Shown in pieces: positions 934-30,838 of a DNA stretch of 38,865 nt. The notes below the pieces were generated by a model. It saw nothing but the letters and a program-made list of their open reading frames with translations, was not told the DNA's origin and made no database searches. Made by a program: the position numbers and the translations under genes. This DNA comes from Candidatus Avibacteroides avistercoris (GTDB lineage Bacteria > Bacteroidota > Bacteroidia > Bacteroidales > Bacteroidaceae). Every line of letters begins with the position of its first letter. The first letter of the stretch is position 1. The stretch lies in assembly GCA_020012075.1 (NCBI GenBank), contig DWUP01000097.1, positions 1 to 38,865 of the forward strand, read 5' to 3'.

Positions 934-1061
934 TAGTCAGGGCAGCGATGGCGGCGAAAATCACTATTTCACATGATGCGGCAGGGCGCAAAGGCGGCGG
1001 CAAGGCGGACAAACCCCAGCAGGGTAGGACACAAAGGCACCGGAGGCGGGACATAAAGTAC

Positions 1062-1155
1062 ATTCGCAAGTTGCGTACATATATTCGCAAGCCTCGTATA
1101 TACATTCGCAAGTTTCGTACATATATTCGCAACTTGCGTATATAGTTTGCATGCG
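1062..1155. repeat. 21-bp-period intergenic array, copy A
   Basis: Four units start exactly 21 bases apart at 1062, 1083, 1104 and 1125, each opening with ATTCGCAA and continuing with (G/T)CGTAYATA; a degenerate fifth begins at 1146. The first unit has CGCAAGTTGCG and the fourth its reverse complement CGCAACTTGCG, so the array is roughly symmetric between strands. It lies between the 3' end of yidC and the promoter of the lipoprotein gene. A near copy is at 30627-30720 with related flanks (GGCGG...ACA...AAAGTA before, TATAGTTT(G/A)CAT(G/A)CG after). Apart from this array and the yidC terminator, the 416-base gap 867-1282 holds nothing I can call. Confidence 0.85.
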
Positions 1156-1207
1156 GTGATGAGTGGGTTTTCTTCCCTCCCCGGTGAAGTCTGTCCGCCG
1201 GGCCGGG

Positions 1208-1247
1208 AAGAAATATCCCGCACCGGACTTGACATCCGATGCGGGAT
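1208..1247 (-). terminator. probable terminator of yidC
   Basis: Arms at 1215-1227 and 1235-1247 form a 13-bp stem with one mismatch and a 7-nt loop. On the minus strand it is followed by ATTTCTT. It sits about 35 bases after the yidC stop codon. Confidence 0.55.
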
Positions 1248-3119: not shown

Positions 3120-5051
<1,932 letters not shown>

Positions 5052-10744: not shown

Positions 10745-10772
10745 CGCACCGCAAGCGACACGACAGACCACC

Positions 10773-10810
10773 GAGAGCCGCACAGACGAGACCAAGCCTG
10801 TGCGGCTCTC
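10773..10810 (+). terminator. hairpin after the fumarase gene
   Basis: GAGAGCCGCACAG (10773-10785) and CTGTGCGGCTCTC (10798-10810) form a perfect 13-bp stem with a 12-nt loop. Only a weak T-run (TCATCT) follows, so it may be an imperfect intrinsic terminator or an mRNA end stabiliser. Confidence 0.6.
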
Positions 10811-10876
10811 TCATCTGCACACATCCCGCCCGGCACCGCACGCCCGCACCGGGACACACGGCGAAAGCGCCGACGG

Positions 10877-10986
10877 CATACGACCCCATCGCCGACAGGG
10901 TCAGACCCCACGACCGGAAACATACTACCCCATCACCCGAAACACCGTACCCCACGGCCGGAAACATACTACCCCGCGGCGCCGTC
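10877..10986. repeat. five-unit array with exact 22-bp period
   Basis: The word (G/T)ACCCC(A/G) begins at 10882, 10904, 10926, 10948 and 10970, exactly 22 bases apart. Three units start CATAC and three end GGAAA or CGAAA. Units differ at many positions while the spacing is kept. It lies between fumarase and the PorT-like gene, both on the plus strand, and ends about 50 bases before the latter. With the terminator hairpin it fills most of the 291-base gap. Confidence 0.85.
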
Positions 10987-11035
10987 ACACCAGCCCGGCG
11001 CGCCGGGCAATAAAACACACCTTTTCACGTTCTGA

Positions 11036-30537: not shown

Positions 30538-30575
30538 GGTGCGGGGGCAGACGCAGACGCGCCTGACCCCGCACC
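30538..30575 (+). terminator. hairpin after the AddB-like gene
   Basis: GGTGCGGGG (30538-30546) pairs perfectly with CCCCGCACC (30567-30575), 20-nt loop, followed by AAAACTTAT. A smaller hairpin CCCCGC/GCGGGG lies at 30488-30507. There is no T-run, so termination is uncertain. Confidence 0.4.
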
Positions 30576-30626
30576 AAAACTTATATGCCTCCCCGCATAA
30601 ACCCGGAAGCACGGCGGACAAAGTAT

Positions 30627-30720
30627 ATTCGCAAGTTGCGAATATATAAACGCAAGTTTCGTATGTATATTCGCAAGTTTAGAATATACATTCGCAACTT
30701 GCGTTTATAGTTTACATACG
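30627..30720. repeat. 21-bp-period intergenic array, copy B
   Basis: Units start at 30627, 30648, 30669 and 30690, exactly 21 bases apart, with ATTCGCAAG, AAACGCAAG, ATTCGCAAG and ATTCGCAAC; a degenerate fifth starts at 30711. As in copy A (1062-1155), the first core CGCAAGTTGCG is the reverse complement of the fourth, CGCAACTTGCG. The rest of the 421-base gap (30470-30890) holds hairpins at its left end and the receptor promoter at its right end. Confidence 0.85.
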
Positions 30721-30838
30721 ACCCGGGGCAACTTTATGTACGGCCGTCAGCAAGTCGGCATGCCTTGCCGCCGCTTTTGCCCGCATCACCGGCAGCACGC
30801 CCACGGCCATGGCGACAGTGACATGCCGCGGCTGATGC

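Follow-up and report, generated by a model that had tools for sequence, protein, structure and literature searches.

Among the interspersed repeats described in the open-access literature, BrickBuilt was the only near relative found of the element reported here. BrickBuilt is a minisatellite-MITE of Porphyromonas gingivalis made of 23-nt direct repeats (1 to 22.8 units), present in 19 dispersed copies, confined to P. gingivalis and P. gulae, and bounded by a leader and tail, up to ~300 nt long, that carry terminal inverted repeats (PMC4596501). The element resembles it in occurring in Bacteroidales, in lying between genes as tandem units of about two helical turns with flanking segments, in being dispersed, and in breaking assemblies. 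It differs in that its units measure 21 bp and number four in nearly every complete array, against 23-nt repeats in variable number, and also in arms phased at 22 bp, the absence of terminal inverted repeats in this genus, and a geometry that crosses genera while its words change. Plasmid iterons and ParR-type centromeres are short rows of binding sites, directly spaced and about 20-22 bp each, at one locus per replicon. Their spacing is similar, whereas the copies here are dispersed over the chromosome.

REP/BIME elements are also short, regularly spaced intergenic palindromes in many mosaic copies, and are known to bind proteins (PMC2817692). In contrast to these, the element has a fixed four-unit architecture and no hairpin covariation, and a RAYT-type transposase was not found. 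Helically phased A-tract clusters (PMC3940949) share the helical phasing of short A/T runs; here, however, a species keeps its specific words, and other words take their place in another species. As tested, the element belongs to none of the REP, MITE and BrickBuilt families. Because unit number, terminal repeats and arms set BrickBuilt apart, and REP/BIME fails on transposase and pairing, we regard the element as a new variant among the interspersed repeats of bacteria.

Arrays A and B

The window, meaning the whole stretch of 38,865 nucleotides that was analysed (contig DWUP01000097.1), derives from a ~2 Mb Bacteroidaceae MAG, which is the source of arrays A and B. Its features are as follows.

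985..1059, no strand assigned: left arm of element A, AAA at 990, 1011, 1033 and 1055 (steps of 21, 22 and 22 bp)
1060..1143, no strand assigned: centre of element A, four 21-bp odd-palindrome units with dyads at 1070, 1091, 1112 and 1133; unit words in order CGCAAGTTGCG, CGCAAGCCTCG, CGCAAGTTTCG, CGCAACTTGCG
1144..1215, no strand assigned: right arm of element A, inverted, TTT at 1146 and 1168, TCT at 1190 (steps of 22 and 22 bp)
4963..5037, minus strand: array of a second family, word CATACRATG / CATYGTATG, same spacing principle with a different word
30556..30624, no strand assigned: left arm of element B, AAA at 30577, 30599 and 30620
30625..30708, no strand assigned: centre of element B, four 21-bp units with dyads at 30635, 30656, 30677 and 30698
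30709..30780, no strand assigned: right arm of element B, TTT at 30711 and 30733; third unit degenerate, AAGTC near 30755

The preliminary description saw four 21-bp units in each array, aligning unit by unit and differing by substitutions only, and both points were confirmed. AAAGTA, TATAGTTT and the last unit CGCAACTTGCG are common to A and B. The first two had been taken for flanks; they are shared, as claimed, but are really the inner ends of 22-bp-periodic arms that reach ~80 bp outward. Likewise, the last unit is shared but is not inverted, showing merely a flip of its central base, a position occupied by C in 42 and G in 40 of all units of the window's species. Unrelated flanks had been named as the observation that would speak against a common element, and here the outcome was mixed: the letters of the flanks are mostly unrelated, while their architecture (AAA/TTT every 22 bp) is shared.

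A and B are 57% identical overall, with 83% in the centre against 43% in the arms. Closer relatives of both lie elsewhere, A being 65% identical to one other copy and B 63% identical to another. The view of A as the twin of B was not upheld, since the assembly contains at least 22 arrays and each of the two is closer to other copies; with no special similarity between them, a twin or duplication origin was rejected. Of the proposed duplication or mobility of a non-coding element, the dispersed non-coding element stands, and the copying of one array into the other does not (57% overall identity). Recent mobility has little in its favour, as there is no target-site duplication, there are no terminal inverted repeats, and the arms differ between copies.

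Anatomy of the full element

The full element spans ~235-245 bp and consists of an 84-bp centre, formed by the four 21-bp odd palindromes, between two inverted arms, each with about three units of 22 bp. An arm profile was obtained by aligning, at the array edge, 106 half-elements from this genome and from two of its congeners. It places TTT at +2, +24, +46 and +67 with GC-rich words in between, and conservation reaches background at ~+80. Spacing is 21 bp in the centre and 22 bp in the arms, with few indels. Exactly four motif-matching units were present in 43 of 60 g1 arrays; many of the others are cut by contig ends or contain a unit missed by the motif, or are real variants; C162 has one unit and C156 five. 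Arms are 43-50% identical between copies and centres about 80%. Near-duplicates also occur in congener G003 (centre identity 1.00, arms 0.80), in which some arms, read by eye, are pieced together from shared modules, a pattern consistent with exchange between copies.

Copies in this genome and in other taxa

A DNA search of the assembly (1.99 Mb, 201 contigs, 88% complete) returned 41 matches, both strands counted, at 22 places, with E values from 3e-112 (self) to about 1e-5. Matches of the arrays to the rest of the genome are far beyond chance (E 1e-25 to 1e-20). The family extends over the whole genome and is more than a pair. In a 312-kb sample of this genome, a count made with no prior model ranked the array words TATATTCGCAA and CGCAAGTTGCG first among over-represented 11-mers. 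Six of 20 sampled G003 contigs start inside an element, and contig ends inside an element were recorded for C1, C2, C10, C17, C18 and C41 (loci L116, L117, L125, L132, L133 and L134). Copy numbers are lower bounds, because short-read assemblies of this genus break at the elements.

In samples of about 400 kb, congeners G001 and G003 contain 20 and 24 elements, respectively; across each whole genome, at least 40 candidates were scored. In both, the word CAGAAGTTTTG replaces CGCAAGTTGCG of this genome. As the array word changes, a DNA search of 40 relatives gave no match. A sequence-only model built from the g1 elements matched 59 of 301 genomes of the family. Beyond the family there were 8 mostly weak matches among about 290 genomes drawn from the order, and 4 single borderline matches among 247 drawn at phylum level. 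The copies in other genera mostly have four 21-bp units, a few weaker matches lacking clear resolution, and in nearly all of those examined units 0 and 5 are at background. Their words are genus-specific (AATCATAAGTTGTGATT, AAACCAAACTTTGGTTT, ATTCATAAGTTATGAAT, AATCAGCAGTGCCGTTT and CCCAAGGCTTGGG). From genus to genus the geometry stays the same, and within a species the words change jointly. G272, the complete genome of a different genus, has about eleven copies; their words differ, and their arms have TTT/GTT at +2, +24, +46 and +68, compared with +2, +24, +46 and +67 in this genus.

Some G272 copies (L238-L240, L244) are contained in units of ~480 bp with long inverted repeats at the ends, GCCCTTCACC...GGTGAAGGGC, and three of their centres are nearly identical. 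Such a unit is possibly a mobile carrier; inspection of these units by eye revealed no consistent target-site duplication.

Other 22-bp-phased arrays

The CATACRATG array at 4963-5037 sits in the gap that separates the CTP synthase gene from the next one. The start of the listed 620-aa CTP synthase ORF is probably too far upstream, as the domain begins at residue 92. When 2-30 free bases were allowed between words, three genomes contained 220 CATACRATG pairs versus 4 for the reversed pattern used as a control. The period is 22 bp in nearly all listed pairs, and in samples 46 of 48 neighbours within 40 bp are at exactly 22. CATACRATG is only weakly palindromic, yet its spacing is the same as that of the four-unit family.

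In element-free intergenic DNA, self-similarity is strongest at lags 22 and 44. The lag-22 signal per 10,000, compared with the median, is 65 vs 17 in G000, 101 vs 17 in G001 and 104 vs 16 in G003. A peak is also present in G004, G007, G009, G012 and G014, and is absent in G005 and in a small Escherichia coli sample. Several other word families lie behind this signal. A search for a three-copy AAGTTT pattern found nothing.

Further arrays were observed individually. The window itself contains, at 10745-11035, a degenerate array of 22-bp period (CATACGACCCCATCGCC..., AAACATACTACCCC) between two co-directed genes. Another 22-bp family, of near-perfect palindromes, is represented by TTGTTAGTCGCACTAACAA in G003 (L117, L121, L125, L129 and L134) and by TTGTAAGTGCCATTTACAA in G001 (L106, L108 and L115). 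Intergenic gaps of G000 (L159, L167 and L171) contain a multi-unit array, TTTAGCCTGAAAATATATA..., and a separate over-represented word, ATTAATCGCGTCTCTAC, has about 26 copies in the 400 kb of the G001 sample (L096-L115).

Proposed function and alternatives

We consider it fairly probable that the element is a helically phased protein-binding array that would form a nucleoprotein complex between genes. Its spacing is strictly helical and independent of the letters between sites, and a fixed two-turn spacing with free intervening letters is what co-operative binding on one helix face predicts. We observed the geometry, the number of copies, words that change in concert and no pairing constraint; a protein, a wrapped form and a structural role are what we infer. 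Each palindrome would bind a dimer of a sequence-specific double-stranded-DNA-binding protein; with palindromes 21 bp, or two turns, apart, four dimers could stack side by side on one face of the helix. The same protein or a partner may occupy the inverted arms, and about 240 bp of DNA would in this way be bent or wrapped into one particle. The binding protein would co-evolve with its word, and copies would be kept uniform by selection and by recombination between them. The likely role is structural, for example as a domain/insulator point or chromosome anchoring point, and not that of a promoter or terminator. The last two of these proposals, ending with the structural role, are the weakest and less secure than the rest.

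That letters change wholesale between species, and spacing does not change even between genera, suggests that geometry is under strong selection and that a reader protein co-evolves. The four-unit element is among the commonest intergenic features of these genomes, and one that breaks short-read assemblies. More tentatively, the Bacteroidaceae may possess a system, general and so far undescribed, of intergenic arrays in helical phase (21/22 bp), with several word families per genome, each with its own rapidly evolving DNA-binding protein; the armed four-unit element would then be its most ordered form, a chromosome-structuring particle.

A selfish MITE or REP/BIME-like repeat, spread by a transposase in trans with the phased units as transposase binding sites, is the alternative to which we give most weight, although we regard it as unlikely. 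Copies are many and dispersed, and the closest known element, BrickBuilt, has been called a MITE (PMC4596501). About half of the G272 copies lie near the inverted repeats GCCCTTCACC / GGTGAAGGGC, and three are alike over ~480 bp; together with the near-duplicates in G003, these demonstrate that copying does occur. Against mobilisation, the arms are far less conserved than the centres, the four-unit geometry is kept across genera, and g1 lacks both hallmarks of transposition. The longest word shared across the edges of g1 elements was 5.70 versus 5.64 after shuffling, although the boundary is not base-sharp and a duplication of 2-4 bp could escape. Outer flanks gave an inverted match of 5.81 versus 5.77 shuffled (n=47), and the outermost arm words a z of 0.2. 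A MITE was accordingly rejected for g1, in the absence of TIR and TSD. The Y1/RAYT transposase domain (PF01797) was not found in this genome, control genomes being positive, although at 88% completeness a copy may have been missed; the RAYT/REP explanation was rejected on this basis.

The element could also act as RNA, as an attenuator or bidirectional terminator of tandem hairpins, which we hold to be improbable. The units are palindromic and fold better than shuffled sequences (single-strand MFE z of -3.8 to -9.4 for A and B), and because single strands can fold, energy alone does not dispose of a structured transcript. However, compensatory changes are absent both within units and between arms. 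Watson-Crick partners at variable symmetric unit positions are as common as expected or rarer (0.26 vs 0.52; 0.54 vs 0.55). Within one element, the left and right arms resemble or complement each other no more than shuffled partners do (z about 0 overall), the first outer word being symmetric between arms in G003 (z 3.8) and the opposite in G000 (z -3.4). The window has no Rfam match, and the equal spacing of the weakly palindromic CATACRATG also argues against hairpins. RNA or cruciform was rejected for want of covariation although the units fold. Nor are convergent gene pairs favoured, and no orientation bias was found among convergent, divergent and co-directional neighbours, so a terminator was rejected as well. 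Slightly more doubtful still is intrinsically curved DNA, in which phased AT-rich steps would act without a dedicated protein. AAA/TTT steps do lie in phase with the helix, and phased A-tracts are widespread in prokaryotes (PMC3940949), but curvature does not need long specific words, GC-rich CCCAAGGCTTGGG included, that are exchanged jointly from one species to the next. It is very improbable that the element is a cluster of promoters, the role proposed for BrickBuilt segments. The element is intergenic, and BrickBuilt segments have bidirectional promoter activity (PMC4596501); the Bacteroidota -33/-7 motifs, however, occur about five times less often in elements (0.08 vs 0.44 per kb for the strict motif, 0.47 vs 2.58 for -7 alone), and a promoter was rejected.

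Genomic location and persistence of sites

Elements are intergenic and are overlapped only by short ORFs of doubtful reality. Neighbouring genes are ordinary and mostly of the housekeeping kind (YidC, CTP synthase, EF-G, RmuC, peptidases), a PD-(D/E)XK nuclease and a TonB receptor also being among the products encoded, and none of the flanking genes is an obvious candidate for the reader of a binding array. Orthologous flanks were counted from a table read by hand, accepting flanks above about 60% identity. At ~8 of ~19 clear orthologous flanks, another species has an element in the corresponding position, in some pairs with a different word, and at ~11 of 19 such gaps the relatives are without one. 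At A and B the neighbouring gene order differs too, leaving no clean empty site. Neither congener has a four-unit element at site A, where G003 carries a CATACRATG-family array; at site B, a G003 contig ends inside an element and G001 has none. Because orthologous copies are no more alike than non-orthologous copies, places persist longer than letters.

The surroundings of two genes differ between G000 and G001. In G000 (L157, 3800-8623), arginine decarboxylase and S46 peptidase genes are together enclosed by one element on either side. In G001 (L110, 18977-19134), a single element lies between the 5' ends of the two genes, as if the region had been re-joined by recombination between elements.
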